Assembly: GCF_024347315.1 (NCBI RefSeq)
Contig: NZ_AP025460.1
Location: 2,046,001-2,110,000 of the forward strand
DNA length: 64,000 nt
Reading direction: 5' to 3'
Source of the DNA: Vibrio atlanticus
Lineage (GTDB): Bacteria > Pseudomonadota > Gammaproteobacteria > Enterobacterales > Vibrionaceae
The number at the start of each line of letters is the position of its first letter. Position 1 is the first letter of the stretch. Both the position numbers and the translations under genes were made by a program. Of this stretch, positions 15,183 to 42,311 are shown piece by piece. A model generated the notes under the pieces. It had not been told where the DNA came from. It worked only from the letters and a program-made list of their open reading frames with translations, and made no database searches.

Positions 15183-15202
15183 GCAAAAGCCAGCTATTAA
15201 GC
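15183..15202 (+). terminator. Left half of the aspC terminator, split by IS insertion
   Basis: CAAAAGCCAGCTATTAAGC here and the GCTATTAAGCTGGC + T-run at 16706-16728 re-form, when one 10-bp duplicate is removed, a stem AAAAGCCAGCT-ATTA-AGCTGGCTTTT with a T-run. This was the original aspC terminator. Confidence 0.85.
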
Positions 15203-15218
15203 CTGTCTCTTATACACA

Positions 15219-15250
15219 AATCCCTAAGCCACGCTTGGGGATTTTTTTTG
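15219..15250 (+). terminator. Inward-facing terminator inside the IS50-like left end (copy 1)
   Basis: ATCCCTAAGC-CAC-GCTTGGGGAT makes a 10-bp stem with one G-T pair, followed by eight T. It faces into the element, so it would stop transcription entering from aspC and would stand in for the split host terminator. Confidence 0.85.
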
Positions 15251-15305
15251 AACTATTTTTAGGTTTCATGATCTGATCATCTAAGCAATGACAAGGATGA
15301 TTATC

Positions 15306-16682
15306 ATGACCTATATAGAGCCAACCCTTTGGGCACAAAAACAGTTCGGTCAAGCCCACCTTAATGACCCTAGACGCACTCAAAGACTCGTTGCTCTCGC
15401 AGCCTCACTGGCCGAGCAACCTGGCGTACCCGTCTCGAAACTCATTATCTCCCCTGCTGAAATGGAAGGGGCTTATCGCTTCATCCGTAATGAGCAAATC
15501 AAAGCAGAAGATATCGCAGAAGCGGGTTTTTATGTCACTGCACAAGAAGCATTAGAGCAACAGACACTTCTTGCCTTAGAAGACACCACTTCTCTCAGTT
15601 ACTCCCATCGCAGCATTCGAGATGAACTCGGGCACTCCAATCAAGGTAATCGACATCGCGCCATGTTCGTACACTCAACCTTACTTTTTGCTCCCGACAC
15701 TCAATCTGTTATTGGTTTAATTGAACAACAGCGCTGGACTCGTGATATAGAAAAGCGAGGTCAAAGGCACCAGCATGCGACTCGACCATACAAAGAGAAA
15801 GAAAGTTATAAGTGGGAACAAGCCTCTCGCCATGTCGCTGAGCGACTTGGCGATAAAATTTCGGATGTCATTTCTGTGTGCGATAGAGAAGCCGACCTAT
15901 TTGAATACCTCACTTACAAGCGAGAGCAACAACAAAGGTTCCTCGTTCGCTCAATGCAAAGCCGCTGTATTGAAGAGCATGATAATCGTCTTTATAGCTA
16001 TGCCTCTACCCTGTTATCAGCCGGAGAGAAAGTGCTCGAAATACCGCAAAAAGGCGGTCGTAAAGCTCGCAAGGCTCATTTAGATATCAAATATGCCCCC
16101 GTGACACTCAAGTCTCCTGCTAACAAGAAAGAGTTCGATAACATTCCGCTTTACTACGTGGGATGTATAGAACAAGGAGAGAGTGGTAATAAGCTCGCAT
16201 GGCACTTACTGACTTCAGAGCCGATAACGAGCAAGGAAGAGGCACTCAAAATCGTCAGTTATTATGAGCGGCGCTGGCTAATAGAAGATTTTCATAAAGT
16301 CTGGAAAAGTGAAGGGACTGAAGTTGAGCAACTGAGAATGCAAAGTAAGGATAACTTAGAAAGGCTCAGCGTCGTTTTGGCTTTTATCGCGACTCGGTTA
16401 CTCCAATTGAGGTTTATGAATGAATCAGACGAGTTATCTAAGACCAGTTGTGAGCAGGTATTAAAAGGCAAAGCGTGGAAGTTAATGTGGCTCAAGTTGG
16501 AGAGCAAAAAACTACCGAAAGAAGCGCCTAATATATCATGGGCTTACAACGGTATTGCTCGGTTAGGTGGTTGGAAGAATACCAAGCGAACAGGTCGCGC
16601 TTCTATAAAGACGTTATGGCAAGGATGGCTTAGGTTACAAACCATCCTTGAAGGGTATGAACTCGCTAAGTCTCTTGATTAA
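15306..16682 (+). CDS. IS4-family transposase of the IS50/Tn5 group, copy 1
   Basis: 458 aa from ATG 15306, preferred over ATG 15288 because AAGGATG lies 7-8 nt upstream. Catalytic residues are D93 (ALEDTTS), D193 (VCDREAD) and E327 in YERRWLIEDFHKVWK, the Y-R-E-K signature; Tn5 transposase uses D97, D188 and E326. WKSEGTEVEQLRMQ also mirrors Tn5. The product should cut and paste the element by a hairpin mechanism, as known for Tn5. GATC sites at 15270 and 15275 lie in the presumed promoter, so Dam methylation may limit expression. The protein differs from copy 2 only at residue 380 (T here, S there). Confidence 0.93.
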   Translation: MTYIEPTLWAQKQFGQAHLNDPRRTQRLVALAASLAEQPGVPVSKLIISPAEMEGAYRFIRNEQIKAEDIAEAGFYVTAQEALEQQTLLALEDTTSLSYSHRSIRDELGHSNQGNRHRAMFVHSTLLFAPDTQSVIGLIEQQRWTRDIEKRGQRHQHATRPYKEKESYKWEQASRHVAERLGDKISDVISVCDREADLFEYLTYKREQQQRFLVRSMQSRCIEEHDNRLYSYASTLLSAGEKVLEIPQKGGRKARKAHLDIKYAPVTLKSPANKKEFDNIPLYYVGCIEQGESGNKLAWHLLTSEPITSKEEALKIVSYYERRWLIEDFHKVWKSEGTEVEQLRMQSKDNLERLSVVLAFIATRLLQLRFMNESDELSKTSCEQVLKGKAWKLMWLKLESKKLPKEAPNISWAYNGIARLGGWKNTKRTGRASIKTLWQGWLRLQTILEGYELAKSLD

Positions 16683-16703
16683 CCAGACTTGTGATCAAGA
16701 GAC
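16670..16703. repeat. Inverted repeat across the transposase stop codon and IS right end (copy 1)
   Basis: GTCTCTTGAT (16670-16679) and ATCAAGAGAC (16694-16703) are perfect complements with a 14-nt loop holding the TAA stop. The inner arm repeats the terminal ten bases of the element in opposite orientation. Confidence 0.8.
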
Positions 16704-16705
16704 AG

Positions 16706-16728
16706 GCTATTAAGCTGGCTTTTTTGTG
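16706..16728 (+). terminator. Right half of the split aspC terminator
   Basis: Second copy of the 10-bp target duplication (GCTATTAAGC) followed by TGGC and a T-run. With 15183-15202 it makes the ancestral hairpin; alone it cannot form the original stem. Confidence 0.8.
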
Positions 16729-16780
16729 TCTGTCTCCTTTATATGTCAGTTTTTAAGACGCTTAGTCTATATATCGCGAA

Positions 16781-17422
16781 CTAATACTCTAGGAAGAACT
16801 CTACACCTAGCTCGTTAGTGCGTTCACTACGAATCTTACCTTCGCCATTTCTGTGTTGGTAAGAGCCACCAATCGCAAATTTGTTGGTCATTAAATAGCG
16901 TAAACCTAGGTGGTAGACTTCCTCGTCAAACAAGTCACTGCGATTCACTTGTACACTGCCGTTCGCTATCCAACGTTTCGCAAAGCCATAGTTGAGTTCC
17001 GCTTTTATTCCTTGGATAAACTCCGTGTCAGACGAGCGAGTAATGTTAGTTCCATTATCTTCGACTTCCCCCTTAGTAATACCAAGCAGGTAGTAAGCCA
17101 CTATATCTAGATCTCGCTTAATACTGTAACGGTACCCAATGCCCGGCATAAGGGTATCCATTCGAGTTGTTGATTCATCTGGGTGAATGAAACGAGCACT
17201 GTAGTCACCCAACAATAGCCAATCATCCGTTATCGCATAGCTAATACCTAATCCATAGGATGATGCATTGTTATTGCTGCCTGCATCTTCATTCAAACTT
17301 CCCGAATGAGCGGTGGCGTATATATGGTCATAATCCAGAATATCCACACGGTGAGTTTCGGCCCACGAACTTGAAGAAAACATAAAAATTGCAGACACTA
17401 AACTAAGTTTCCACTTCGGCAT
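16781..17422 (-). CDS. Outer-membrane beta-barrel protein, ~213 aa
   Basis: The start at ATG 17422 (MPKWKLSLVS...) is preferred over 17431 because AAAGGA lies 8-9 nt upstream. A signal peptide ends in SSSSWA, with cleavage before ETHRVD. The mature protein shows alternating aromatic/hydrophobic strands (YGLGISYAI, WLLLGDYSARF, IGYRYSI, LDIVAYYLLG, AELNYGF, YHLGLRYLM, FAIGGSYQHR) and ends in GVEFFLEY with a C-terminal aromatic, as expected of a barrel inserted by the BAM complex. It is about the size of an eight-stranded OmpX/OmpW-type porin-like protein. Function unknown. Confidence 0.72.
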   Translation of the reverse strand: MPKWKLSLVSAIFMFSSSSWAETHRVDILDYDHIYATAHSGSLNEDAGSNNNASSYGLGISYAITDDWLLLGDYSARFIHPDESTTRMDTLMPGIGYRYSIKRDLDIVAYYLLGITKGEVEDNGTNITRSSDTEFIQGIKAELNYGFAKRWIANGSVQVNRSDLFDEEVYHLGLRYLMTNKFAIGGSYQHRNGEGKIRSERTNELGVEFFLEY

Positions 17423-17572
17423 TCCTATCATCCTTTAACTATCACCCTATTATTTGAAAGATTAGTCTATCCCTTAGACTTTAAAAAGGTTTTAGCTCAC
17501 AGATTGATTTGTGACGGCAAAATATTATCAAATGTTGTACCATGAAATCATACAAACCAATGGATGATCATT

Positions 17573-19462
17573 ATGGATGCTGAGTTATTAGAGATTCAAA
17601 ACTTTCTGGCACAATACCCCCCTTTCACAGAACTCCCAGAGGAGATGTTGGTGAAAGTGACCAGTAGCGTCGAAATTTCTTATTACCGCCAAGATACCCC
17701 TATCATTCACTTTGGTGATCAGATTAACGACCTTTACATTGTTCGAAGCGGCGAAGTAGAAGTCTATCGTCGTAAAGGTGAGCTCTATAACCGGCTGGAT
17801 GAGGGACACTTATTTGGCCAAATGGGGCTACTCACCAACAATAAAGTTCGCTTCCCGGTAAAAGCAACAGAAGACACCCTACTCTACTGTATCCCTGAAC
17901 CTATTTTCCAAGAACTCTACGACAACTATGATTCATTCGCTGACTTTGTCGAAGTAGAAGATAATGCGCGACTGCGTCAGGCTAACTCAGACAGCAACGA
18001 CGCTAACGATCTAACCACGTCAAAGGTAAAGACGCTGCTGACTAGCGAAGCGCCAATGATCGAAAAAACACGAACCATCCAACAAGCTGCTACCATGATG
18101 GCACAAGATAATGTTTCATCTTTGCTGATCATCGACCCGGATATTGTCGAAGATGATGAAGACGATTCGACGCCCGTTATTGGTATCATTACCGACCGTG
18201 ATCTGTGTACCCGAGTTTTAGCAGAAGGACTCGATCCATCGGATGAAGTATCAAGTGTAATGACAGCAGAGGTTATCTCGCTCGATCATAATGCCTATGT
18301 CTACGAAGCCATGATGACCATGCTTCGCTACAACGTGCATCACCTACCAGTACTAAAAGACAAGAAGCCTATTGGTATTATTGAAGCGACCGATATTGTA
18401 CGTTACGAGTCTCAAAACTCGCTGTTATTGGTAAGCAGCATCTTCCAGCAACAAAGTATCGAAGACCTAAAAGTCCTTTCTGAGCAAGTAAAAGACAGCT
18501 TTGTGCGCTTGGTTAACGAAGACGCCAACGCCCACATGGTGGGTACCGCAATGTCGGTAATTGGCCGTAGCTTTAAACAACGAATTATTGAACTAGCTGA
18601 AGATAAACTCGGTAAAGCGCCGATCCCTTATTGCTTCCTAGCGCTCGGCTCGATGGGGCGTGATGAGCAGCTGCTCGTTACTGACCAAGATAACGCAATT
18701 ATTCTTGATGATACCTACGACGAGAAAAAGCACGGTAAGTACTTTGAAGAACTATCGACCTTCATTTGTGATGGCTTAGACCAATGTGGCTATGTGTACT
18801 GTACCGGTGACATCATGGCCACTAACCCAACTTGGCGTATGACACGTCGACAATGGGAAGAATGCTTCGCTGATTGGATTGATGATCCAAACCCGAAAGC
18901 ACTACTGAACGCCTCTATCTTCTTTGATTTAGATGGTGTTTATGGCCGCTTAAAATGGGCAGAACAGTTAAATAGTTTTATTGTAAGACGTGCGCGTAAG
19001 AACAACCGTTTCTTGGCGTGTCTTGCTCGTAACGCACTCAACCGAACACCGCCTCTGGGTTTCTTTAAAGATTTCGTAATGGAGAAAGATGGTCGTCATA
19101 ACAACTCGATCAATCTTAAACGTCGTGGTACCGCACCACTTGCCGATCTAATCCGTGTTCACTCTTTAGCAGTCGCATCTCGCTCTAAGAACTCATTCGA
19201 ACGTTTAGATGACATTATCGACGCAGGTATTTTGCCAAAAGGTCGAGCTCAAGACTTGAAAGATGCGATGGAATTTATCTCTTTAGTTCGTATTCGCCAC
19301 CAAGCACACGATGTCGACAACAACATCGAACCGGATAACAACATCGAACCAGAGAACCTTTCTGACTTCGAGCGACGTAATCTAAAGGATGCATTCCAAA
19401 TATTAAGCAATGCACAGAACTTTCTTAAGTTCCGTTATCAAGCCAGCAATAAGTTTAAGTAG
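17573..19462 (+). CDS. cNMP-binding / CBS pair / DUF294 nucleotidyltransferase-like protein
   Basis: About 629 aa from ATG 17573 (GGATG upstream; ATG 17564 is also possible). Domains in order: cyclic-nucleotide-binding fold (~10-125, with GDQINDLYIVRSGEVEVYRR split by strands), two CBS motifs (~150-285), then a DUF294 nucleotidyltransferase-like domain with LGSMGRDEQLL and TDQDNA (~358-374), the GSxGR...D-x-D pattern of GlnD-type enzymes, and its C-terminal helical domain. The family is thought to sense adenylyl ligands and perhaps modify a partner, but substrates are not known. The next gene starts 5 bp later and encodes a DEDDh exonuclease, a pairing I have seen in other gammaproteobacteria. 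A tandem 18-bp repeat (DNNIEP twice) lies near residue 585. Confidence 0.85.
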   Translation: MDAELLEIQNFLAQYPPFTELPEEMLVKVTSSVEISYYRQDTPIIHFGDQINDLYIVRSGEVEVYRRKGELYNRLDEGHLFGQMGLLTNNKVRFPVKATEDTLLYCIPEPIFQELYDNYDSFADFVEVEDNARLRQANSDSNDANDLTTSKVKTLLTSEAPMIEKTRTIQQAATMMAQDNVSSLLIIDPDIVEDDEDDSTPVIGIITDRDLCTRVLAEGLDPSDEVSSVMTAEVISLDHNAYVYEAMMTMLRYNVHHLPVLKDKKPIGIIEATDIVRYESQNSLLLVSSIFQQQSIEDLKVLSEQVKDSFVRLVNEDANAHMVGTAMSVIGRSFKQRIIELAEDKLGKAPIPYCFLALGSMGRDEQLLVTDQDNAIILDDTYDEKKHGKYFEELSTFICDGLDQCGYVYCTGDIMATNPTWRMTRRQWEECFADWIDDPNPKALLNASIFFDLDGVYGRLKWAEQLNSFIVRRARKNNRFLACLARNALNRTPPLGFFKDFVMEKDGRHNNSINLKRRGTAPLADLIRVHSLAVASRSKNSFERLDDIIDAGILPKGRAQDLKDAMEFISLVRIRHQAHDVDNNIEPDNNIEPENLSDFERRNLKDAFQILSNAQNFLKFRYQASNKFK

Positions 19463-19467
19463 GCGCT

Positions 19468-20184
19468 ATGAACAAACTATTCAGATCCCCAGCGGTTGAT
19501 TGGCCATTTAAGTTTGCTCAGAAGCTCGAACGAGCGAGAGATGAACGCTTGAAGCAATTTTATAGCCAGCCTCTTCCTGCACCTGATACGCCATTATCAG
19601 AAGTGACTTTCTTAGCTGTCGACTTTGAGACAACGGGTTTAAACCCAAACAAAGATGGCATCATTACCATTGGTCTAGTTCCGTTTACGCTAAATCGAAT
19701 CTACCTAAGACAAGCCAAGCACTGGACCCTGAGACCAAAGCAGAAATTGGAAGAAGACTCGGTTGTTATCCATGGCATCACTCACAACGACATCATTGAT
19801 GCGCCAGACTTAAGTGAAGTATTAGATGAGATCTTAGAATCAATGGGCGGCCATATCCCAGTCGTTCATTATCGCCGCATCGAGCGTGATTTCTTGGATA
19901 ACGCGTTGAAGGTCAGATTAGGTGAAGGAATTGAGTTTCCAGTCCTCGACACGCTCGAGATTGAATCTCAAATCCAAAACAAACTGGCCGGCGGTCTATG
20001 GAATAAGCTAAAAGGTAAGAAGCCTGCGTCAGTAAGGCTTGGTCAGAGCCGTCGTAGATACCACTTGCCTGACTATACTCCGCATCATGCGTTAACTGAT
20101 GCGATTGCGACAGCGGAGCTTCTACAAGCACAGATTGCGCACCATTTTAGCCCTGATATGCCTGTTAAAGATTTCTGGTTATAG
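19468..20184 (+). CDS. DEDDh 3'-5' exonuclease (DnaQ/epsilon-like)
   Basis: 238 aa. ExoI motif AVDFETTGLNP supplies the first acidic pair (D and E near 51-53), VVIHGITHNDI follows, and HHALTDAIATAELL near the C-terminus supplies the ExoIII histidine and aspartate. The fold is that of DnaQ and RNase T; the sequence is not PolIII epsilon itself, which is encoded elsewhere in Vibrio. Starts 5 bp after the cNMP/CBS/DUF294 gene and so is translationally linked with it. Probable role in nucleic-acid processing or repair, substrate unknown. Confidence 0.85.
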   Translation: MNKLFRSPAVDWPFKFAQKLERARDERLKQFYSQPLPAPDTPLSEVTFLAVDFETTGLNPNKDGIITIGLVPFTLNRIYLRQAKHWTLRPKQKLEEDSVVIHGITHNDIIDAPDLSEVLDEILESMGGHIPVVHYRRIERDFLDNALKVRLGEGIEFPVLDTLEIESQIQNKLAGGLWNKLKGKKPASVRLGQSRRRYHLPDYTPHHALTDAIATAELLQAQIAHHFSPDMPVKDFWL

Positions 20185-20237
20185 CTAGATAAACTAGTCG
20201 CTGTTAGTTACTGACTAATAAGTGCTCACCTCAGAAC

Positions 20238-20275
20238 TAAAAACGCTCACATCTTCTAGATAGTGAGCGTTTTGT
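20238..20275. terminator. Bidirectional terminator
   Basis: AAAACGCTCAC/GTGAGCGTTTTG stem with a 12-nt loop between the exonuclease gene (plus) and the MOSC gene (minus). It can terminate both. Confidence 0.85.
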
Positions 20276-20312
20276 TTTGCGCATGATTGTCTTTTAAGCA
20301 TGAATAGAAAGT

Positions 20313-21005
20313 CTACTCGGCTGTCGGGCCAACCAATCTCATTTCCCAATCTTCAACTTCGCCAGTTTCAAGTCGACGTTCTACGAGCGTGCCCCAAGAT
20401 TCCACTAGAGGCAGCTCCGCCAATTCTCTAAGCTCTTGTTTATCCAAACAACCCGTGAACACCGCACCCATAACCCGGCTTAACGGCCATTCTGGGTAAG
20501 GTCTTTCACACAGGATAATCTCGTCGCCGGAGCCGATATCACCCTCTTCCAAAACACGGAAGTACCAGCCAGTTCGAAGGGTGTCTTGTAGCCTTTTCGC
20601 CATATCATTTTGATCGAATCGTACATTGAGCTTCCAACAAGGCATACGACCTTGTGAAACTTCCAGCAAGGTTGAACCAATTCGAATCTTATCTTTTAAA
20701 CAAATGGAAGCTTCAGTCACCCCACTTGAACTTATGTTCTCACCAAATGCACCTTCAGATTGGAAGATTGCTTTGTCGCCCAACTCCTCCTGCCAAATTA
20801 AGTAGTGCTCGCTTGGGTAGATATGAAGGGCTTTCTGAATACCACCATGAAAGCGAGGGTCGCCTTGCTCATCGTTAATAAATCCAAGCTCAGTGGTGTA
20901 TTGGCGCTCAGATAAAACCTGCTTATTGATAGCACTCTGTGTACCGTGAGCAAAAGCAACAACCTTACCGCCCAAAACACTGTTTACTGTACCTAACTTC
21001 TTCAT
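20313..21005 (-). CDS. MOSC domain protein, YiiM-like
   Basis: 230 aa from ATG 21005; AAGGAAGGGT lies directly upstream, so the longer frame to 21023 is unlikely. The MOSC fold is shown by DPRFHGGIQKALHIYPSEHY, FGENISSSGV, IRIGSTLLEVSQGRMPCWKL (given in parts; the last holds the conserved cysteine) and NVRF. YiiM-type proteins bind the molybdenum cofactor and reduce N-hydroxylated bases such as 6-N-hydroxylaminopurine. It is similar in length to E. coli YiiM (224 aa). Monocistronic. Confidence 0.82.
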   Translation of the reverse strand: MKKLGTVNSVLGGKVVAFAHGTQSAINKQVLSERQYTTELGFINDEQGDPRFHGGIQKALHIYPSEHYLIWQEELGDKAIFQSEGAFGENISSSGVTEASICLKDKIRIGSTLLEVSQGRMPCWKLNVRFDQNDMAKRLQDTLRTGWYFRVLEEGDIGSGDEIILCERPYPEWPLSRVMGAVFTGCLDKQELRELAELPLVESWGTLVERRLETGEVEDWEMRLVGPTAE

Positions 21006-21025
21006 ACCCTTCCTTTTCAGCAAGT

Positions 21026-21055
21026 AAAAAAAGAGGAGCTTTCGCTCCTCTTATT
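21026..21055 (-). terminator. Original serC terminator, now separated from serC by an ISL3 element
   Basis: AAGAGGAGC-TTTC-GCTCCTCTT stem; on the minus strand it is followed by TTTTTTT. It lies 20 bp beyond the ISL3 element, on the side away from serC, so it originally ended the serC transcript. It also lies just upstream of the MOSC gene. Confidence 0.8.
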
Positions 21056-21075
21056 GTGAAATACGCCTTAATTAA

Positions 21076-22367
21076 GGTTCATCGCGGCTTTCCGGGGAAA
21101 GCCGCTTTTATCTTCAAGAAGAAGTAGTCTGTATCTCGATAACCATATCCCATTCGCTTGATTAACTTTATCTTGTTGTTTATCCCTTCAAGCGTGCAGG
21201 TATTTAACGGGTAACTTGCCGATGCGATAACCCCGTGAAGATATGGTCTGAGTTTTCGTGCGAACTCTTTTAATGGCTTAATCCCACTCTCTTGCACTTG
21301 TTCCCACCACGCGTCCCAGAGCCCCTTTGCGTGCCCTTCTGATTCACAATACCAAAGCTCTTTGAGTTGTGCTCCGAGTATATAAGTGGTCATTAAGTCC
21401 TTATTGATATTCAATATTTCAGTAAGATAGCTATCTTGGCGTGTATTTAAGTTGCCTCTATTTTTCAGCAGTACCCAACGTGAACGCTTCACCCATTGCC
21501 TCGCTTTTTTGTCTTGCTTAAGTTTGTTGGCTTGGTCGATTCTAACTCTATCCATCACCTCGCGACCGAACTTAGCGACAACATGGAATAAGTCGTAAAC
21601 GATTTTTGCGTTCGGGCAATGCGCTTGAACTTCAAGATCGAAAGCCGTATTCATGTCCATCGCGACAGCTTCGATATTTATCCCATGCTCGCCTAGTTGC
21701 TCGAAGAACGGTCGTATGTCTTTGCGGCTACGACCTAATCCTATCCAAATGACTTGGTGAGTCTTAGCGTCAGCGATGACCGTGGCATATCGATGTCCTT
21801 TAAAGATGGCGAACTCGTCCATGACGAGTTGCCTTAGGTCTTCCCATTTTATTGACGGTACAACTTGTCTAAGCCGGCGTTTATCTATCTCTTTAATAGT
21901 GTGCCAATGAACGCTCGTTAACTGGGAGATATGCTTAATGGGGAGAAGAGGTAATAGTTGTTCTATATAGCTTTTTAGGCGCTTCGTTATGCGAGCATAA
22001 GGCTCTAACCAAGATAGAGACTCTGTTTTTATGCCGCAGTCGCGACACTTAATCCTTCGAGTTTGAACGGAAAGTTCAACTGGAACACCGAGTAACATGG
22101 CATCCTTTACATGACGCCATTGATACTCATGGATAGCTTCGGCTTCAAGACCACAGAGGCATTTAGCTTCAGAGTTAGGTTTAAGAGTCAGGGTAATAAG
22201 TGTTGCTGTCTGGTGAGACTTTACTATTTGAAAGCCTTCCCAGAATGAAGATAGGAAAGTATGATTCGGCATGGAAACGGTAGTTTGTGTATGATTTTTG
22301 TTTGGCGACTAAACCATATCACTTACTACCGTTTTTGTTTTAAGTTCCCGCTAATCCGCGATGAACC
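21076..22367 (-). mobile_element. ISL3-family insertion sequence, 1292 bp
   Basis: Terminal repeats GGTTCATCGCGG and CCGCGATGAACC (12 bp perfect) are flanked by an 8-bp duplication TTAATTAA (21068-21075 and 22368-22375), the length expected for ISL3. The element holds one transposase gene on the minus strand, in the same direction as serC. A perfect 10-bp hairpin GCGGCTTTCC/GGAAAGCCGC (21084-21105) followed by TTTT on the plus strand lies just inside the left end and would block transcription entering antisense to the transposase. Confidence 0.92.
21079..22272 (-). CDS. ISL3-family transposase
   Basis: 397 aa. The N-terminal zinc finger is visible as CLCG and CRDCG cysteine pairs, followed by a helix-turn-helix region (ISQLTSVHWHTIKEIDKRRL) and a DDE core: VMDEFAIFKGHRY (first D), VAMDMNTAFDLEV (second D) and a C-terminal NTCTLEGINNKIKLIKR (E). 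This order is typical of ISL3 transposases. The stop codon (TGA, 21079-21081) lies inside the terminal inverted repeat. No frameshift is visible, so the element is probably competent. Confidence 0.9.
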   Translation of the reverse strand: MPNHTFLSSFWEGFQIVKSHQTATLITLTLKPNSEAKCLCGLEAEAIHEYQWRHVKDAMLLGVPVELSVQTRRIKCRDCGIKTESLSWLEPYARITKRLKSYIEQLLPLLPIKHISQLTSVHWHTIKEIDKRRLRQVVPSIKWEDLRQLVMDEFAIFKGHRYATVIADAKTHQVIWIGLGRSRKDIRPFFEQLGEHGINIEAVAMDMNTAFDLEVQAHCPNAKIVYDLFHVVAKFGREVMDRVRIDQANKLKQDKKARQWVKRSRWVLLKNRGNLNTRQDSYLTEILNINKDLMTTYILGAQLKELWYCESEGHAKGLWDAWWEQVQESGIKPLKEFARKLRPYLHGVIASASYPLNTCTLEGINNKIKLIKRMGYGYRDTDYFFLKIKAAFPGKPR

Positions 22368-22371
22368 TTAA

Positions 22372-23466
22372 TTAAGCGTATTTCTCTTCAAAGTCTTTCA
22401 TGAAGCTGACTAATACTTGCACGCCTTCCAGAGACATCGCGTTGTAAAGTGATGCTCGCATCCCACCTACCGCTCTGTGGCCTTTTAGTGATTTCAGACC
22501 AGCAGCATCAGCCAACTCTAAAAACTTAGCATCTAGCTCTGGTTTCGCTAATTGGAATGGCACGTTCATTCTTGAACGGTTTACTGTATGAACATCGTTT
22601 CTGTAGAAAGCTGAGCTATCAATCGCATTATAAAGCAGCGCAGCTTTCTCTTTGTTCACTAATTCCATCGCTTCAACACCACCTTGAGCTTTCAACCACT
22701 TGAATACGAGGCCTGATAGGTACCAAGCATACGTTGGCGGTGTGTTGAACATTGAGTCTTTTTCAGCAAGTACTTTGTAGTTAAGAATGCTCGGCAATAC
22801 GTCGTTTGCTAGCTCTAGCAGATCATCACGCACGATAGCAATGCAAATACCAGCAGGGCCTATATTCTTTTGAGCGCCAGCGTAGATAACACCGTACTGA
22901 GACACATCGATCTTACGAGACAGAATGTTAGATGACATATCCGCTACGATTGGCTTATCCGTTTGAGGAAGCTCACTGATTTCAATACCATCGATGGTCT
23001 CATTTGGACAGAAATGTACATACGCCGCTTCCGGGTCGATTTTCCAATCTTTAGCTGGAACAACCGCTGCTTTGCCATCAATTGACGCCTTGGCGTTGAA
23101 TACATCGATTTCGCAATATTTGCTCGCTTCAGTCACTGCACTTTCTGCCCAGTAACCCGCATCAATGTAAGTCGCTTTCGTCGCGTCACCTAAAAGGTTT
23201 AGAGGAACAGCAGCGAATTGAGCACGAGCGCCCCCCTGACAGAAAAGAACTTTGTAGTTGTCTGGGATGTTCAGAAGATCACGTAGGTCCTGTTCGGACT
23301 CGTCAGCAACTTGAATAAATTCCTTGCTGCGATGGCTGATTTCCATCACGGAAGTCCCTAAACCATTCCAATCAATAAAGTCCGCCTGCGCTTGTTTCAT
23401 TACCGGTTTAGGCAGTGCAGCTGGGCCAGCACTGAAGTTGAATACGTTATCTAATGTAAGTTCCAT
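22372..23466 (-). CDS. serC: Phosphoserine aminotransferase
   Basis: 364 aa from ATG 23466; AGGAG lies 11 nt upstream and the product begins [19 protein letters not shown], the standard SerC start. Residues upstream of this in the longer frame have no support. Key features: [23 protein letters not shown] segment ([11 protein letters not shown]), CQGGARAQF and the PLP-binding lysine K200 in [10 protein letters not shown]. It makes 3-phosphoserine from 3-phosphohydroxypyruvate and glutamate, and also acts in pyridoxine synthesis. An ISL3 element sits next to its stop codon; the reading frame is intact, but the transcript now runs into the element. Confidence 0.95.
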
Positions 23467-23532
23467 GGGGATGATTGCTCCTGCTAAATAATAACTATGC
23501 AAGTAATACCATGTTTTACCCAACATAAAAAC

Positions 23533-23565
23533 AACAAAAGAGGTCTTAAGACCTCTTTTGTTTTG
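23533..23565. terminator. Terminator after the DUF945 gene
   Basis: AAAAGAGGTCTTAAGACCTCTTTT is a 12-bp perfect dyad with a T-run on each strand. It ends the 23630 gene on the minus strand just before the serC promoter region. Confidence 0.85.
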
Positions 23566-23629
23566 TACCGTATAAAATGTTTAAGCTGAACCTGCTAAAT
23601 CACCCTATCAGTATTCAAGCCTGTTCTGT

Positions 23630-33828: not shown

Positions 33829-34178
33829 CCATTCAATTTTAGTTGCATCAAATTGAAAATTTCTTTCTTTTTGATGTAACTTAGCTGTCAGTTCATACTC
33901 AATTTGCATTCTTTTTGCTCAAACCCTCTTCCAATTCTGTAGTTTTCTAAAATTTTGTTGAGGTTTGTCATATTCTTAAGCATTGATGCCGTGTTTTTGT
34001 ATTAGTGAATAGTATGTTGGGTTTATACTGACTCTATGGTGCTAGTTAGCTTGATATCTATTTGATGCAGTAGAATTTACAATACCGAATATAAGTTTGG
34101 TTTTGTATTTTCTTATATTTGTTTCAGCCATACCCCCTGGTAAAAGATATTAACTAGCAAGTTGTTCTCTATACCCTT
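33829..34178 (+). other. panP-hexR intergenic region
   Basis: 350 bp. Right after panP two overlapping dyads occur: TTCAATTT/AAATTGAA, and GTTGCATCAA with TTGATGTAAC (9 of 10 paired, 20-nt loop); these may act as a weak terminator or regulatory hairpin. The remainder is A/T-rich, without a gene. The hexR promoter is presumably near 34080-34150. A HexR-like box (TGTAAT-N3-ATTACA) was looked for and not found. Confidence 0.55.
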
Positions 34179-34187
34179 GTGAACACT

Positions 34188-35042: not shown

Positions 35043-35077
35043 TCTGTTAAGATGTGAGCTTAAGAATTAAATTCAAT

Positions 35078-35110
35078 TGAAAAACGGAGCCTAGAGCTCC
35101 GTTTTTATTT
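35078..35110. terminator. Bidirectional terminator between hexR and the Fe-ADH gene
   Basis: AAAAACGGAGC-CTAGA-like loop-GCTCCGTTTTT. Works for the convergent hexR and adh genes. Confidence 0.85.
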
Positions 35111-35182
35111 GTCTGTTTAAATGGGTTTGTGCTGTGATTGATTATAGTGTGTCTGGTTATGCCGAGAACAGATTGAAGACTG

Positions 35183-36475
35183 TTAGATAGTCCAGCTATT
35201 GCCCTTCTCAACCACGCTGTTCTCGGACGCATAAGAGTTGATAATGGTAAAGTTCGACTCGGCGGCAGGCTCTTGCTCAATTTGATTCATTGAAGCTCCC
35301 TCATGACGCCCTTCTACACAACCGCACTTCTCGCAAACCTTCTTCAGAATACGTACGAGTCGTTCTTGGTTCAGCGGTAAAGGGTTCCCTTTAATCGCCA
35401 CCGATTTGAGCGCGTCGGCAGACACCTCATCAAACTGGGCTTCACAGACACCAAATTCCAGTAAGCTTGGAAGCTTGAGCGTATCCAACACTTCAGACAA
35501 CCAAGAAATTGCCTCTTCCTCTGTTGCTTCTACGTTACCTGTCACTATCTGAGAAATTCGCTGATAACGCGCTAGGATGTCACTCCTCTGCTGTTCTTTC
35601 GCAACAGCGATGTTCTCCATCATCACAAATGGCGCTATGCGCGCTGTTATAACACTGTGTGGTGCAGATATCTTGCCACCTAACGCAGAAGCCAAACCAT
35701 GCGCAGCACCAAGTTTGGCGTTAGTTATCGCTATTCCCCCTAACATAGAGGAAAACGCGAGATCAGAACGCGCTTGAGGTTCATCGTAGATACACGCCTG
35801 AATGACAGAGCCACTCAGCTTACGTAAGCCTTCTTCACAGATCATATCAGTCAGTGGGTTCGGTTCACCGCACACATAGGCTTCCATTAGATGGGTAAAT
35901 GCGTCCATAGCACCTCGCCCCGACAAATACAGATTCGTACCATGAGTTAGGGTTGGGTCAACAATCGCAACGTCAGCCAGCATGTCTGGGTTTCTAAGGC
36001 TGATTTTCACTTGGTCTTGCCCTGATTTCAGCACCGCGTTTTTAGTGACTTCTGCACCTGTACTCGCTGTGGTTGGAATCGCAATGAACGGAAGTGGTTT
36101 GGTTTTAAGAGGGACATTACGCCCAACGACTTCAACATAGTCATACAAACTACCTTGGTTAGGTAAAACCGCGGCTAACGCTTTGCCCATATCGATGGCG
36201 CTACCGCCCCCCATAGCGACAACCATATCTGGCTTAAATCGACGTGCAGAAATAGCAGCCTCCTCAACCATTTTGATATTAGGTTCACCGGATACGGCAA
36301 TGTGTTGATAGCGCATACTCTGTGCATCGAGATAGTCAGTAACTATTGAAGTGCGCTCTAATGTATTGCCAGTCACCAATAGCACGCTGTAACCGTATTG
36401 ATTAAAGAGAGACAATGAAGCGGAGAGTGCTCCATCACCAAAGATGATCTTTGTAGATGTCATAAATTGAAACAT
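35183..36475 (-). CDS. Iron-containing alcohol dehydrogenase with an unusual C-terminal tail
   Basis: 430 aa. NAD-binding motif MGGGSAIDMGKA (~99-110) and the metal ligands D and H in GAMDAFTHLMEAY (~195), AAHGLASALGG (~267) and APHSVI (~281) are intact. Group III alcohol dehydrogenases are usually ~380-390 aa; here about 45 extra residues follow ILKKVCEKCG. The tail contains CEKCGC, an acidic stretch and ends VEKGNSWTI. Substrate cannot be read from the sequence. Its 5' region is rich in dyads and in an unusual homopolymer tract. Confidence 0.85.
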   Translation of the reverse strand: MFQFMTSTKIIFGDGALSASLSLFNQYGYSVLLVTGNTLERTSIVTDYLDAQSMRYQHIAVSGEPNIKMVEEAAISARRFKPDMVVAMGGGSAIDMGKALAAVLPNQGSLYDYVEVVGRNVPLKTKPLPFIAIPTTASTGAEVTKNAVLKSGQDQVKISLRNPDMLADVAIVDPTLTHGTNLYLSGRGAMDAFTHLMEAYVCGEPNPLTDMICEEGLRKLSGSVIQACIYDEPQARSDLAFSSMLGGIAITNAKLGAAHGLASALGGKISAPHSVITARIAPFVMMENIAVAKEQQRSDILARYQRISQIVTGNVEATEEEAISWLSEVLDTLKLPSLLEFGVCEAQFDEVSADALKSVAIKGNPLPLNQERLVRILKKVCEKCGCVEGRHEGASMNQIEQEPAAESNFTIINSYASENSVVEKGNSWTI

Positions 36476-37006
36476 GGTGCCTCCTGCGCCTATGACCGAA
36501 CAAAACTGCGAACTCTTGGTTTTTAGAAAATTGATTTCTGGAAATTGGTCTCTTGGATTTTACATTTGGAATTTGATTTTCGTATTTACAACACAATCTC
36601 GCCCCCCCCAAAAAAAATACGAATGCACTAAAACATCATTACTTCAGACAGCTTACAGAATATGGTTCCATACCTAGATAAAGGATGCCTCGTTCTGCGT
36701 TTGATTTTTTTGACAAGGTGCAACTTGTCGCACTAAATATCGACTAAAGTTGCAATCTTAGGGGGAATTCACATACTAATATTGAGGGGAATTCACGATG
36801 ACAGTGGCCAGTAAACAAGACTCTAGCCTTTTATGATTAATATTTGCGCTGATAGGCAAAACCTATCGTATTAAGAGGCAATTCCATCTTTATTTCCCCA
36901 TGCCATTGAGGCATAGTTGGTTTTAAGAAATTTTGAGTGGCATTCATAATAGAATAGTTAACATAAATGAGTTAACGAGCCTCATCCCGTATTTAGGAGA
37001 AATTAA
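36476..37006 (+). other. Intergenic region with dyads, repeats and a C8A8 tract
   Basis: 531 bp between the divergent Fe-ADH and grxA genes. It contains a C8 (36602-36609) and A8 (36610-36617) tract inside an inverted repeat TTCGTATTT (36579-36587)/AAATACGAA (36615-36623); a GACAAG-N6-CTTGTC dyad (36712-36729); TGCAACTT (36719)/AAGTTGCA (36747); and two GGGGAATTCAC copies 24 bp apart (36762, 36786). The second is followed by a 12-codon frame from ATG 36799 with GAGGGG upstream. The grxA Shine-Dalgarno AGGAG lies before 37007. No larger gene seen. Confidence 0.7.
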
Positions 37007-37270
37007 ATGTTTGTAGTTATTTTTGGTCGCCCTGCTTGTCCATTCTGTGTTCGCGCAAAAGAGCATGCTGAAACTCTTAAAGCTAAACGCGATGACTTCA
37101 ACTACCGTTACGTTGACATCCACGCTGAAGGCATCAGCAAAGCTGACCTAGAGAAGACTGTTGGTAAACCTGTAGACACAGTTCCACAAATCTTCATCGA
37201 CCAAGATCACATTGGCGGCTGCACAGAATTTGAAGCATACGCAAAAGAAAACCTAGGTCTTTTCGACTAA
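37007..37270 (+). CDS. grxA: Glutaredoxin 1 (GrxA)
   Basis: 87 aa, close to E. coli Grx1 (85 aa). Active site CPFC (E. coli has CPYC) in FGRPACPFCVRAKEHAE, cis-proline in TVPQIFID and the glutathione-binding GGCTEFEAY. It reduces disulfides, including ribonucleotide reductase, with glutathione. ATG 37007 has AGGAG upstream. Followed by its own terminator. The presence of ybjL next follows the arrangement of E. coli grxA-ybjC/ybjL. Confidence 0.92.
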   Translation: MFVVIFGRPACPFCVRAKEHAETLKAKRDDFNYRYVDIHAEGISKADLEKTVGKPVDTVPQIFIDQDHIGGCTEFEAYAKENLGLFD

Positions 37271-37347
37271 ACTGGGATTTCTCAAACGAAAATCGAGGCT
37301 AAAGCCTAAACAGCTGATAGATAAAACAGTTAGACTGTATGATTGAT

Positions 37348-37380
37348 ATAAAGCCCGCTCATTGTAGCGGGCTTTTTTAT
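37348..37380 (+). terminator. grxA terminator
   Basis: AAAGCCCGCT-CATTG-TAGCGGGCTTTTTT: 10-bp GC-rich stem and T-run. Confidence 0.9.
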
Positions 37381-37517
37381 GACAATTTTTCAACCGGAGT
37401 AAGATTAAGGTCAATATCGAATAAAATTGAAAATAGCACTTATAATTTATTTATATTTAGATACAATTCATTCCTCAAACTGATCCTGTGTTTCACGCTA
37501 ATTATTGAGCAATCACT

Positions 37518-39200
37518 GTGAATATCGACGTTGTCTTGCTGTTAAAACAAAACCCCATCCTTCTCATTTTTGTTGTGTTATCTATTGGCCTCGCCATTGG
37601 TAAAATTCGTTTCGGTAGTCTCCAACTAGGAAATTCAATCGGTGTTCTGATTACTTCTCTTATCATGGGACATCTTGGCTTTTCCTTTAACGCCGACGCT
37701 CTCACGATTGGTTTCATGCTCTTCATTTACTGTGTAGGTATTGAAGCTGGCCCCAACTTCTTCGGTATATTCTTCAGAGACGGTAAGCATTACCTCATTC
37801 TTAGCCTCGTTGTACTTTCTACGGCTATTGCCCTTACTTATTTTTGCAGCGAATATTTAGGTCTTGGTTTCGGACTTTCCGCCGGCATGATGGCGGGAGC
37901 ACTAACTGCAACACCAATATTAGTTGGTGCGCAAGATGCACTCAATTCAGGTTTAGCTGAAGTGCCAAGAAACATGGACCTGGGTCTGGTCATAGAAAAC
38001 CTCTCTGTAGGTTACGCGATGGCTTATTTAGTCGGCTTAATCAGTATGATTATGTTTGCCCGCCTTATTCCAAAGCTTCAGAAAGTAAACCTACACGACT
38101 CTGCAGAACAAATAGCTCAAGAGCGTGGCCTAGGCACCTCTGGCCAGCGTAAGGTTTACTTACCTATTATCCGAGCTTATCGTGTGGGACCAGAACTCAT
38201 TACCTGGACTGATGGCAAGAACCTTCGTGAGCTTGGCATCTATCGCCAAACTGGTTGCTACATCGAGCGGATCCGACGTAATGGTATTCTTGCCCACCCT
38301 GATGGCGATGCCATTCTGCAAGAAGGTGATGAAATCGCATTAGTTGGCTTCCCTGACAGCCACGCTCGTCTTGATCCAAGTTTCCGAAACGGCAAAGAAG
38401 TTTTTGACCGTAATCTTCTCGATCTACGAATCGTTGAAGAAGAGATCGTCGTTAAAAGTGACAACATCGCGGGTAAGCGTTTATCTGACTTAAACTTATC
38501 CGAATACGGCTGTTTCCTTAACCGCGTAGTAAGAGCTCAAATTGAAATGCCGATGGACTTAAACATCGTACTTTCTAAAGGTGATGTACTACAAGTCAGT
38601 GGTGAAAAGAGCCGTGTTCACGGCCTTGCAGAAAAAATTGGTTTCATCTCGATTCACAGCCAAATGGCCGATTTGACGGCTTTCTGTAGCTTCTTCATTC
38701 TGGGTATTTTGTTTGGTTTGATCACCATGACATTCGGACAAGTCTCATTTGGTTTAGGTAATGCGGTTGGTCTTCTTTTATCAGGCATCATGCTTGGCTT
38801 CTTACGAGCGAACCACCCTACCTTCGGTTACGTTCCTCAAGGGGCGTTGAATATGGTTAAAGATCTCGGTTTGATGTTCTTTATGGTCGGTATCGGCTTG
38901 AGCGCCGGGGGTAAGATATTTGAGCATTTGACCCAAGTGGGTCCGCAAGTTATCGGGATAGCACTTATCGTGAGTGTACTGCCGGTATTCTTCGCTTACT
39001 TAGTCGGCGCTTACGCACTGAAAATGAATCGAGCTCTTCTTTTTGGAGCCATCATTGGCGCACGAACCTGTGCTCCGGCGATGGACATAGTGAATGACCA
39101 CGCTCGTTCAACTATCCCAGCACTGGGGTACGCGGGTACGTACGCAATAGCCAATATATTGATGACCTTAGCGGGTACCTTTATCATTATCATTAGCTAG
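37518..39200 (+). CDS. ybjL: Putative transporter YbjL (AspT/AAE family)
   Basis: 560 aa with the family layout: ~5 N-terminal TM helices (1-180), two RCK_C/TrkA-C domains (~205-375; [16 protein letters not shown] in parts) and ~5 C-terminal helices (~385-560) ending in FIIIIS. Duplicate AspT-like motifs occur: [16 protein letters not shown] and [16 protein letters not shown]. The length matches E. coli YbjL (561 aa). Substrate unproven; AspT members are aspartate:alanine exchangers. The start at GTG 37518 is as for E. coli. Confidence 0.86.
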
Positions 39201-39236
39201 TTTATTCAGCGTTATAACGCTTTAGATTAGATATTT

Positions 39237-39276
39237 TAAATGCACTAATTCATCTTTGAGTTAGTGCATTTTTTAT
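39237..39276 (+). terminator. ybjL terminator
   Basis: AAATGCACTAA and TTAGTGCATTTTTT flank a 12-nt loop; T-run follows. Confidence 0.85.
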
Positions 39277-39330
39277 TACTTAATCTCTTTTCTCATCCCA
39301 CATCTCTATACTACTTCCCTCAAACTACAG

Positions 39331-39372
39331 ACAAAAAAATAGGCGCTCAATGAGCGCCTATTTCGTTTTGAT
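39331..39372 (-). terminator. fabV terminator
   Basis: AAAAAAATAGGCGCTCA/TGAGCGCCTATTTC: long perfect stem, T-run on the minus strand. Confidence 0.88.
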
Positions 39373-39385
39373 TCGATTGTTTGAA

Positions 39386-40588
39386 TTAGATGTCAGCTAC
39401 ATCAAATTCAACAGCTGTCTCAACGTCAGCTTCGTAATCAACACCATCAACACCGAAACCGAACAACTTCAAGAACTCTTCTTTGTACTCTACGTAGTCA
39501 GTCAGTTCTTTCAGGTTTTCAGTTGTGATTTGAGGCCATAGGTTACGACAATGCTCTTGAATGTCGTCACGAAGTTCTAGGTCGTCTAGACGTAGACGGT
39601 TCACTTCGTCAACTTCTGCTGCGCTACCATCTTCTTTGTATAAACGTTGGCTGAACATACGGAAGATCTGTTCCATACAACCTTCGTGAATGCCTTCTTC
39701 ACGCATTTTCTTGAACACCATAGCGATGTAAAGAGGCATAACAGGGATTGCAGAACTTGCTTGAGTCACAACAGACTTAAGAACAGCAACGTTTGCAGTA
39801 CCACCAGTTTGGCCTAGTTTCTCGTTAAGCGCTGACGCTGCACGGTCTAGATCCATCTTAGCTTTACCTAGCGCGCCATCCCAGTAGATTGGCCACGTTA
39901 GCTCAGTACCGATGTAGCTGTAAGCAACAGTCTTACAACCGTCAGCTAGAACACCCGCTTCAGAAAGTGCGTTGATCCAAAGTTCCCAATCTTCACCGCC
40001 CATTACAGTAACAGTGTCTTTGATCTCTTCTTCAGTAGCAGGCTCAACGCTTGCTTCAATGATCGCATCTTTGTTTGTATCTACCGCTGTAGATGTGTAA
40101 GTCTCACCGATAGGTTTAAGAGATGAACGAATCACTTCGCCAGTCTCTGGCATTTTACGCACTGGAGATGCCAGTGAGTACACAACCATATCGATTTGAC
40201 CTAGATCTTCTTTGATCAGGTCAATTGTTTTCTGTTTAGCTTCGTTAGAGAAAGCATCGCCGTTAAGGCTTTTTGAATACAGGCCTTCTTCTTTAGCTAG
40301 CTTATCGAACGCTGCTGAGTTGTAAAAACCAGCTGTGCCCGGCTTTTTCTCAGTACCGGCTTTCTCGAAGAAAACACCGATAGTTGAAGCGCCGCCACCA
40401 AATGCAGCCGCAATACGTGAAGACAAGCCGTAGCCACTTGAAGAGCCAACAACGAGTACACGTTTAGGTGCATTTGCGATTGGGCCTTGAGCTTTTGTGT
40501 AAGCAATTTGTTCTTTTACATTAGCTTCACAACCGACTGGATGTGTTGTAGTACAGATGAATCCGCGAATTCGAGGTTTGATGATCAT
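39386..40588 (-). CDS. fabV: Enoyl-ACP reductase FabV
   Basis: 400 aa from ATG 40588, chosen over 40594 because AAGGAAG lies ~8 nt upstream. The cofactor-binding [13 protein letters not shown] and the catalytic pair Y235 and K244 ([10 protein letters not shown]) fall at the residue numbers known for V. cholerae FabV. It performs the last reduction of fatty-acid elongation with NADH and is resistant to triclosan, unlike FabI. Adjacent IS and fadE suggest a local fatty-acid region, but fabV has its own promoter region (40589-40760). Confidence 0.95.
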
Positions 40589-40757
40589 ATTCAACTTCCT
40601 TAAAAAATCAGGTTAAGGATAAGAGTTTCGTGCGCAAATGGCATCTAATTTCTGTAAAAATGTGGTGAAAATGCAAGTGGTTGGAGCACTCAACTGATAT
40701 TTGCTGACTAAGTCACCATTTGTTAACGCATGTATTGAGACTTCTACGACAAAAACT

Positions 40758-40777
40758 AAAAAAGGCACCTTATTAGG
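40758..40777 (-). terminator. Left part of the fadE terminator, split by IS insertion
   Basis: Here AAAAAAGGCACCTTATTAGG, and at 42281-42300 CCTTATTAGGTGCC then TTTT. Removing one 10-bp duplicate restores AAAAGGCACCT-TATT-AGGTGCCTTTT, the terminator expected for fadE on the minus strand. Confidence 0.82.
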
Positions 40778-40793
40778 CTGTCTCTTATACACA

Positions 40794-40825
40794 AATCCCT
40801 AAGCCACGCTTGGGGATTTTTTTTG
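40794..40825 (+). terminator. Inward-facing terminator inside the IS50-like left end (copy 2)
   Basis: Same 10-bp stem and eight-T run as in copy 1. Here the adjacent gene fabV points away, so the terminator only protects the transposase from outside transcription. Confidence 0.82.
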
Positions 40826-40880
40826 AACTATTTTTAGGTTTCATGATCTGATCATCTAAGCAATGACAAGGATGATTATC

Positions 40881-42257
40881 ATGACCTATATAGAGCCAAC
40901 CCTTTGGGCACAAAAACAGTTCGGTCAAGCCCACCTTAATGACCCTAGACGCACTCAAAGACTCGTTGCTCTCGCAGCCTCACTGGCCGAGCAGCCTGGC
41001 GTACCCGTCTCGAAACTCATTATCTCCCCTGCTGAAATGGAAGGGGCTTATCGCTTCATCCGTAATGAGCAAATCAAAGCAGAAGATATCGCAGAAGCGG
41101 GTTTTTATGTCACCGCACAAGAAGCATTAGAGCAACAAACACTTCTTGCCTTAGAAGACACCACTTCTCTCAGTTACTCCCATCGCAGCATTCGAGATGA
41201 ACTCGGGCACTCCAATCAAGGCAATCGACATCGCGCCATGTTCGTACACTCAACCTTACTTTTTGCTCCCGACACTCAATCTGTTATTGGTTTAATTGAA
41301 CAACAGCGCTGGACTCGTGATATAGAAAAGCGAGGTCAAAGGCACCAGCATGCGACTCGACCATACAAAGAGAAAGAAAGTTATAAGTGGGAACAAGCCT
41401 CTCGCCATGTCGCTGAGCGACTTGGCGATAAAATTTCGGATGTCATTTCTGTGTGCGATAGAGAAGCCGACCTATTTGAATACCTCACTTACAAGCGAGA
41501 GCAACAACAAAGGTTCCTCGTTCGCTCAATGCAAAGCCGCTGTATTGAAGAGCATGATAATCGTCTTTATAGCTATGCCTCTACCCTGTTATCAGCCGGA
41601 GAGAAAGTGCTCGAAATACCGCAAAAAGGCGGTCGTAAAGCTCGCAAGGCTCATTTAGATATCAAATATGCCCCCGTGACACTCAAGTCTCCTGCTAACA
41701 AGAAAGAGTTCGATAACATTCCGCTTTACTACGTGGGATGTATAGAACAAGGAGAGAGTGGTAATAAGCTCGCATGGCACTTACTGACTTCAGAGCCGAT
41801 AACGAGCAAGGAAGAGGCACTCAAAATCGTCAGTTATTATGAGCGGCGCTGGCTAATAGAAGATTTTCATAAAGTCTGGAAAAGTGAAGGGACTGAAGTT
41901 GAGCAACTGAGAATGCAAAGTAAGGATAACTTAGAAAGGCTCAGCGTCGTTTTGGCTTTTATCGCGACTCGGTTACTCCAGTTGAGGTTTATGAATGAAT
42001 CAGACGAGTTATCTAAGAGCAGTTGTGAGCAGGTATTAAAAGGCAAAGCGTGGAAGTTAATGTGGCTCAAGTTGGAGAGCAAAAAACTACCGAAAGAAGC
42101 GCCTAATATATCATGGGCTTACAACGGTATTGCTCGGTTAGGTGGTTGGAAGAATACCAAGCGAACAGGTCGCGCTTCTATAAAGACGTTATGGCAAGGA
42201 TGGCTTAGGTTACAAACCATCCTTGAAGGGTATGAACTCGCTAAGTCTCTTGATTAA
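40881..42257 (+). CDS. IS4-family transposase of the IS50/Tn5 group, copy 2
   Basis: 458 aa from ATG 40881, with the same start logic and catalytic residues as copy 1 (D93, D193, E327), and S380 instead of T380. No stop or frameshift separates it from the other copy, so both appear intact. Very high nucleotide identity indicates recent transposition or gene conversion. Confidence 0.92.
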   Translation: MTYIEPTLWAQKQFGQAHLNDPRRTQRLVALAASLAEQPGVPVSKLIISPAEMEGAYRFIRNEQIKAEDIAEAGFYVTAQEALEQQTLLALEDTTSLSYSHRSIRDELGHSNQGNRHRAMFVHSTLLFAPDTQSVIGLIEQQRWTRDIEKRGQRHQHATRPYKEKESYKWEQASRHVAERLGDKISDVISVCDREADLFEYLTYKREQQQRFLVRSMQSRCIEEHDNRLYSYASTLLSAGEKVLEIPQKGGRKARKAHLDIKYAPVTLKSPANKKEFDNIPLYYVGCIEQGESGNKLAWHLLTSEPITSKEEALKIVSYYERRWLIEDFHKVWKSEGTEVEQLRMQSKDNLERLSVVLAFIATRLLQLRFMNESDELSKSSCEQVLKGKAWKLMWLKLESKKLPKEAPNISWAYNGIARLGGWKNTKRTGRASIKTLWQGWLRLQTILEGYELAKSLD

Positions 42258-42311
42258 CCAGACTTGTGATCAAGAGACAGCCTTATTAGGTGCCTTTTAT
42301 CATTTCCTTAT

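Follow-up and report, generated by a model that had tools for sequence, protein, structure and literature searches.

Insertion of an IS50-like element of Vibrio atlanticus into the hairpins of intrinsic terminators, with target duplicates that follow the hairpin interior

A stretch of 64,000 nucleotides from the Vibrio atlanticus genome (contig NZ_AP025460.1; hereafter the window) contains two copies of an IS50-like insertion sequence (IS), both located within the hairpin of an intrinsic terminator. The comparison of all copies in this genome and in close relatives showed that the joining position on each strand was constant, slightly within the base of the stem, and that the target duplicate was the interior of the hairpin, with its length following that of the interior. 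On balance, we consider it probable that this cut-and-paste element of the IS50 subgroup targets the palindromes of intrinsic terminators and attacks them as a paired structure, such as a small cruciform or a strained hairpin within the transpososome.

The genome (5.1 Mb, three contigs) carried 21 copies of the 1503-bp element, which were 99–100% identical. Without L008, the tandem partner of another copy, and L013, the flanks of which were unlike, 19 independent sites remained; one extra G beside the right end was ignored in L019 and in the tandem pair. All 19 sites were terminators composed of an A-tract, a hairpin, and a T-tract, with a centred duplicate. The four bases outside the duplicate were complementary across the sides at 18 sites and three of the four at the remaining one, while the first two pairs within the duplicate were complementary at every site. 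An A was found at 56 of the 57 positions directly upstream, and a T at 56 of the 57 directly downstream. In close relatives, namely elements with at least 73% protein identity from 10 other genomes (including the internally deleted L160 and G006 with a broken transposase), all 30 sites were likewise terminator hairpins with centred duplicates; four outer pairs were complementary in 26 of them and three in 4, and both inner pairs in all 30. Copies L055, L070, L157, and L159 were excluded from this set because their duplicates were unmatched. Judged by eye, four of the five unequal copies (L013, L055, L157, and L159, not L070) kept the full hairpin interior on each flank, as would be expected if copies had recombined.

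A first-pass annotation of the window had noted the pattern in two of two copies, had supposed that the transposase chooses terminator hairpins, and had proposed removing one duplicate from every copy and comparing the empty sites with random intergenic sites. Carried out along these lines, the analysis gave hairpins with centred duplicates throughout: at least five of the six test pairs were complementary at 19/19 sites of this genome, compared with 3065 of 500,000 random positions (0.6%). The strict form, AAA plus four complementary bases, 8–12 nt, four bases, and TTT, was present in 43 of 1,994,000 position-by-length tests over 400 kb. Thus, the two-of-two pattern was beyond coincidence, and the targeting of terminator hairpins was borne out at all 19 and all 30 sites.

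The duplicates at the 19 sites were 8 bp (four sites), 9 bp (two), 10 bp (eight), 11 bp (three), and 12 bp (two) long. The duplicate stood 4 nt from the A-tract at 18/19 sites and 5 nt from it at one, and 4 nt from the T-tract at all 19. The constant feature was therefore the position of the cuts, 4 nt within the A- and T-tracts, and the duplicate was whatever stood between them. The half-site consensus was AAAGGC[T/A]^CC, with the strong form AAAGGCT^CCC. At a terminator common to two species, the interior and the duplicate were 10 nt and 10 bp long in L003 (G000), and 9 nt and 9 bp long in L068 (G147). Nine terminators were occupied in more than one species, and at four of these (L003, L009, L013, and L019; judged from one flank for L013/L058) the elements had opposite orientations, so the hits were probably independent. 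The reference point for the cut is thus not the loop but the stem base or a short motif located there. The earlier description of the duplicate as a 4-nt loop plus three pairs on either side was correct as to centring and as the commonest case (8/19); as a general rule it was dropped in view of the variable duplicates in this genome and of the related elements G186 and G195. The stem base as a general ruler was dropped as well, on account of the same two elements.

The features of the window are as follows.

13937–15145, + strand: aspC-like class I/II aminotransferase, the upstream gene reading into the left end of copy 1 (Pfam PF00155, E 1.1e-83).
15185–15202, + strand: left half of the interrupted aspC-like terminator; A-tract 15185–15188, GCCA 15189–15192, duplicate GCTATTAAGC 15193–15202 (read directly; duplicate by script).
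15203–16705, + strand: IS copy 1, 1503 bp, termini CTGTCTCTTATACACAA...TTGTGATCAAGAGACAG.
15218–15249, + strand: built-in intrinsic terminator within copy 1 at its left end; a stem of 12 bp encloses the loop CAC and is followed by a T-run (folding and covariation over 14 chosen elements).
15288–16682, + strand: transposase of copy 1, 464 amino acids, Tn5/IS50 type with DDE and YREK (Pfam and PDB match).
16706–16725, + strand: right half of the aspC-like terminator; duplicate GCTATTAAGC 16706–16715, TGGC 16716–16719, then the T-tract.
40758–40777, + strand: left half of the terminator beside fadE, split by copy 2; A-tract 40758–40763, GGCA 40764–40767, duplicate CCTTATTAGG 40768–40777.
40778–42280, + strand: IS copy 2, 1503 bp, termini CTGTCTCTTATACACAA and TTGTGATCAAGAGACAG.
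40793–40824, + strand: built-in intrinsic terminator at the left end of copy 2; letters identical to copy 1 (read only; folding and scan were run on copy 1).
40863–42257, + strand: transposase of copy 2, 464 amino acids (Pfam).
42281–42298, + strand: right half of the fadE terminator; duplicate CCTTATTAGG 42281–42290, TGCC 42291–42294, T-tract 42295–42298.
42312–44594, − strand: fadE-like acyl-CoA dehydrogenase, the terminator of which contains copy 2 (Pfam PF09317, E 1e-112; PF02771, PF00441, PF02770).

The placement of both window copies inside intrinsic terminators, as first annotated, was confirmed. The rebuilt empty sites formed an 11-bp stem with a 4-nt loop, and RNA folding gave −15.6 kcal/mol for copy 1 and −16.0 kcal/mol for copy 2 (z −4.45 and −5.13). 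In the closest relatives, the orthologous place carried an uninterrupted terminator of the same form (L300, L301, L302, and L304 for the aspC-like site and L330, L331, L333, L334, and L335 for the fadE site). More distant relatives had other hairpins, or none by the strict scan. Downstream of fadE in L332 (G042), the first half of the terminator only was present, followed by other sequence, perhaps the scar of a lost insertion.

With frames called mechanically, the left neighbouring gene read toward the IS in 20 of the 21 copies; 14 copies had convergent genes on their two sides, and no copy had divergent ones. None of the 21 was flanked by open frames running to both edges, and one frame (stop to stop) started a single base away from the right end of L012. 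A bias of orientation toward the upstream gene is not claimed: in the close clade, co-directional neighbours gave 16 to 6 (p 0.052), a count that was not de-duplicated and included one case from this genome that is a tandem partner. Among G186/G170 and among G195, the trend was opposite, 1 to 4 each. The pattern AAAGSCW-N8-12-WGSCTTT fitted 16 of the 19 occupied sites and matched 70 forward places in the genome. Among the 50 listed of these 70 matches, 18 represented a single place within the element's own copies (21 expected). By our estimate, about 49 host places are empty, and about a quarter of such places are occupied. A direct tandem of two IS copies, L008/L010 (G000:C1:1472770-1475785), shared one common 8-bp interior, CCCGAGGG, in a single terminator.

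The element consists of one gene encoding a transposase of 464 amino acids with Pfam domains PF14706 and PF01609, and PF02281 just below the cut-off. Its closest PDB chain was Tn5 transposase 1mm8 (phmmer E 1.4e-79, residues 5–463). D99, D199, and E333, together with Y326, R329, E333, and K340, were invariant among seven aligned transposases; we take D99, D199, and E333 to be the catalytic residues, in line with the Tn5 alignment. The IS50 subgroup is defined by DDE/YREK spacing, end pattern, length, and direct-repeat range (PMC2266710). The transposase had the spacing D(60-110)D(100-150)E and Y(2)R(3)E(6)K, the end CTGTCTCTTATACACAAAT fitted CW------Y---CA-A--W-, and the length of 1503 bp was within 1350–1550 bp. 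However, the duplicates, 8–12 bp in this genome and up to 14 bp in G186, went beyond the 8–9 bp given in the range summary (PMC2266710, Table 1). Thus, the element is a variant of the IS50 subgroup of the IS4 family rather than a typical member. An insertion of ~9 residues at positions ~151–168 set the transposase apart from that of Tn5; it was rich in basic residues and stood directly before an EKES.KW stretch, where our own alignment places K160 and K164 of Tn5. An influence of these two residues on target choice or capture has been reported (PMC2229646). The same insertion was found in the non-targeting G027 transposase and therefore does not explain the difference in targeting.

The distribution of hairpin targeting was assessed on copies from this genome, the same genus, and named genomes, which gave 104 sites, 80 of them hairpin and 24 non-hairpin; seven copies of the first set without matching duplicates were excluded. 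From one set of 72 loci, 62 were scanned, and 31 of these gave duplicates of 8 bp or more; 26 of the 31 entered the count (four repeated other rows and one had a flank that was too short). Hairpin targeting was found throughout the clade of the window element and in G072 (74% identity), at 5/5 sites of Alishewanella copies with resolved duplicates (60% identity), at 7/8 sites of the G186 element (61% identity), with duplicates of 9–14 bp, and again at 8/8 sites of G195 (54% identity). Single hairpin sites also occurred in deep branches without the built-in terminator (L272 and L278). The elements of G027 and G134 (51% identity) made 9-bp duplicates and had no hairpin among four sites; G040 had none at its one site, six of the seven resolved Photorhabdus copies were non-hairpin, and G122 had a hairpin at one of five sites. 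Several more distant relatives had duplicates of 8–10 bp in non-hairpin DNA. In G122, a related element with a built-in terminator was present four times (L089, L090, L092, and L093) in GGGGGAGTTAGAGGGGGGAT-like non-hairpin sequence. Duplicates longer than 10 bp occurred at 18 of the 80 hairpin sites and at none of the 24 non-hairpin sites (Fisher p 0.011, indicative only, since the sites are linked by descent of the elements and the value is uncorrected for relatedness).

Whether the transposase chooses the DNA structure or a palindromic sequence was only partly shown. In the second case, a dimer would read the half-site AAAGGCT^CC and its complement in double-stranded DNA with an elastic spacing of 8–12 bp, and terminators would simply be the places where inverted half-sites occur. 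We regard this as a serious possibility, although a somewhat unlikely one. Several observations speak for it and weigh against attack on a paired structure. The half-site consensus was strong, and the half-site score alone, calculated over 400 kb, predicted 91% complementary sites in this genome, with the weight on a few top places; the 32 host matches to AAAGSCW-N8-12-WGSCTTT among the 50 listed of 70 were all complementary. Thus, the window genome by itself cannot separate structure from sequence. The interior was also bounded near one helix turn ± 2: it exceeded 12 nt in 0/15 occupied GGCW sites compared with 21/35 empty ones (Fisher p 3.6e-5). Of these 35 empty places, 31 were complementary, and 18 of the 31 exceeded 12 nt (p 8e-5); without CC..GG interiors, the figures were 0/5 occupied and 18/30 empty (p 0.019). 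A pure cruciform predicts no upper length, and the observed limit therefore weighs against attack on a free cruciform. In addition, one outer pair was mispaired at 5 of 49 sites, and in G186 and G195 the cut tracked a short motif and did not follow the stem base. Duplicates of variable length are known in the IS4 family, 10–12 bp for IS231 and 10–13 bp for IS4 (PMC2266710).

However, a linear reading would have to bridge 8 and 12 bp, which by our reckoning differ by 144 degrees of helical twist, whereas Tn5 makes 9 bp (PMC2229646), and duplicates above 10 bp were confined to hairpin sites. The G186 element, with the outer motif CCA^...^TGG, had interiors that were varied in sequence and mostly palindromic, far above the supply of CCA/TGG places. 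Inner pairs 1–4 were all complementary at 5/8 of its sites (two of which share one interior), compared with 5 of 647 CCA/TGG places in 400 kb (2/40 outside open reading frames, ORFs). For the longer motif CCA^SC..GS^TGG, pairs 3 and 4 were complementary in 5/6 inserted sites and in 2/13 background places (0/2 outside ORFs). The G186 sites favour pairing itself, in small numbers. In the corresponding test for G195, 4 of 12 background places were paired (3/5 outside ORFs). The consensus match inside the IS (AAAGGCTCAGCGTCGTTTTGGCTTT, the place behind the 18 matches noted above) was a non-hairpin place and contained no copy, which is weak evidence, as its right half is off consensus within the duplicate.

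It is much less probable that insertion is coupled to termination, with a paused RNA polymerase, a nascent hairpin, or an open bubble at an active terminator recruiting the transposase. The terminator form of all 19 sites and the direction of the left neighbouring gene agree with such coupling, but the cuts were symmetric on both strands with single-base precision, G186 used palindromes in which the A/T-tract was short or absent (L081, L082, and L172), and the orientation at common sites was not fixed (4/9 opposite). Random insertion followed by selective loss of copies in genes and regulatory DNA is refuted by the base-level register: it would account for the absence of copies between open frames running to both edges, but selection can neither centre duplicates to the base nor fix the 4-nt distance, and the elements of 51% identity lay in non-hairpin DNA, with an open frame to an edge in three (L097, L098, and L099) of five cases (G027, G134, and G040).

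If the paired form of the palindrome is what the transposase attacks, it would most likely be a small cruciform held in the transpososome. In a cruciform, both cut sites would be equidistant from the junction whatever the length of the loop, which would explain duplicates of 8–14 bp in a relative of Tn5 with its 9 bp.

Bases 16–42 of the left end formed a 12-bp stem followed by a T-run (36-nt piece, −14.7 kcal/mol, z −4.37). In 14 elements chosen among the carriers, compensatory changes preserved the stem: 99.4% of the cells were paired and 7 of the 12 pairs had changed on both sides; the covariation score was 0.495 compared with 0.215 in shuffled alignments, and none of 500 shuffles reached it. 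This set omitted G202, G108, G178, G046, G170, and G006. The scan for the built-in terminator, performed on one representative per group, detected it in the same-genus targeting groups, except for G202 (one copy), where it was degraded; L233 and L268 carried it too. G122 had it as well, as did G040 and L242 (one site each) in weak form, and the sites of these three were mostly or wholly outside hairpins. It was not found in the non-targeting G027, G134, Photorhabdus L243, L265, and L289, nor in L272 and L278 with their single hairpin sites. A terminator at the right end was detected among the scanned representatives only in G108, ~50 nt inside. Thus, targeting and the built-in terminator are associated and not locked together. 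Three near-perfect palindromes of 57–59 bp, L163 (G072 C2:1626725-1626783), L164 (G072 C1:1520564-1520622), and L184 (G186 C1:1996964-1997020), were each made up of a pair of left ends of the IS joined at the hairpin of the built-in terminator. They lay between hairpin-like flanks and may be remnants or minimal non-autonomous elements. L184 and the full copy L080 had similar near flanks.

Insertion splits the host terminator but brings in another, which the upstream gene would meet only a few bases further on, so that the built-in terminator may replace the one that was lost; shielding of the transposase gene from read-through would be an equally good reason for its presence. With both effects, copies could accumulate at gene ends at little cost. 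The earlier suggestion that terminator targeting limits harm was strengthened by the terminator at the left end, the effect of which we infer. We tentatively suggest that a Tn5-type DDE transposase may use the extruded cruciform at terminators, with cuts fixed to the four-way junction and a duplicate set by hairpin geometry in place of a fixed stagger. Together with the built-in replacement terminator, this could constitute a low-harm strategy that arose in one large clade and perhaps again elsewhere.

Insertion at intrinsic terminators is known for group IIC introns, but these are retroelements that move via RNA without a transposase. The present element resembles IS50/Tn5 in transposase family, DDE and YREK residues, end sequence, and a length of ~1.5 kb. 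It differs in that Tn5 inserts randomly at large scale with a 9-bp duplicate, whereas terminators and 8–12 bp were found here; a preferred target of Tn5, used in an assay, is the palindrome-like GCTCAGAGC (PMC2229646). IS1272 of the IS1182 family also targets inverted repeats of varied sequence, and a cruciform model has been proposed for it, in which hypothetical branches would lead to duplication of either the stem-loop or the loop (PMC5678879). However, IS1272 removes the target stem-loop and leaves no duplicate (PMC5678879). In our case, the target was an inverted repeat as well, but the interior was retained and duplicated, with matching duplicates at 19 of 20 independent sites of this genome (not L013). 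The element is therefore outside the IS1182 family and resembles the IS1272 type in target only. ISRm22 of the IS4 family inserts at the axis of a palindrome, but its target is REP repeats (PMC1525189), whereas here terminators of many genes with varied sequences were used; stems and loops differed among the sites of this genome and only the short half-site was common, although no search was aimed at a REP family in this genome. IS231 and IS4 share variable-length duplicates, and some elements of the IS4 subgroup have conserved arms flanking the duplicate (PMC2266710). They belong to other subgroups, and the consulted sections of that source describe no link between duplicate length and hairpin interior. 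Tn916 has a terminator close to one of its ends that shields it from transcription by the host; it is a conjugative element, and the consulted part of its description makes no link to insertion into terminators (PMC11658703). A literature survey by titles and abstract openings, with most subscription journals outside its scope, yielded no IS50-type element in intrinsic terminators and no hairpin-set duplicate. Palindrome-seeking ISs such as IS1272 and ISRm22 were already known, and the specificity for terminators with hairpin-set duplicates appears to be new.

The Tn5 transposase is widely used, and its target choice is usually taken as nearly random, whereas its natural relatives described here were found almost only at terminators. 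Targeting and non-targeting relatives at 50–60% identity provide ready comparisons for the determinants of target choice and stagger, and the existence and use of cruciforms in living cells becomes addressable by a simple insertion assay. A terminator-seeking relative of Tn5 might also serve as a gentle insertion tool. For the host, the results show a route by which an IS can reach 21 copies with no sign of a gene hit, and suggest how a mobile element can multiply with little harm to it.

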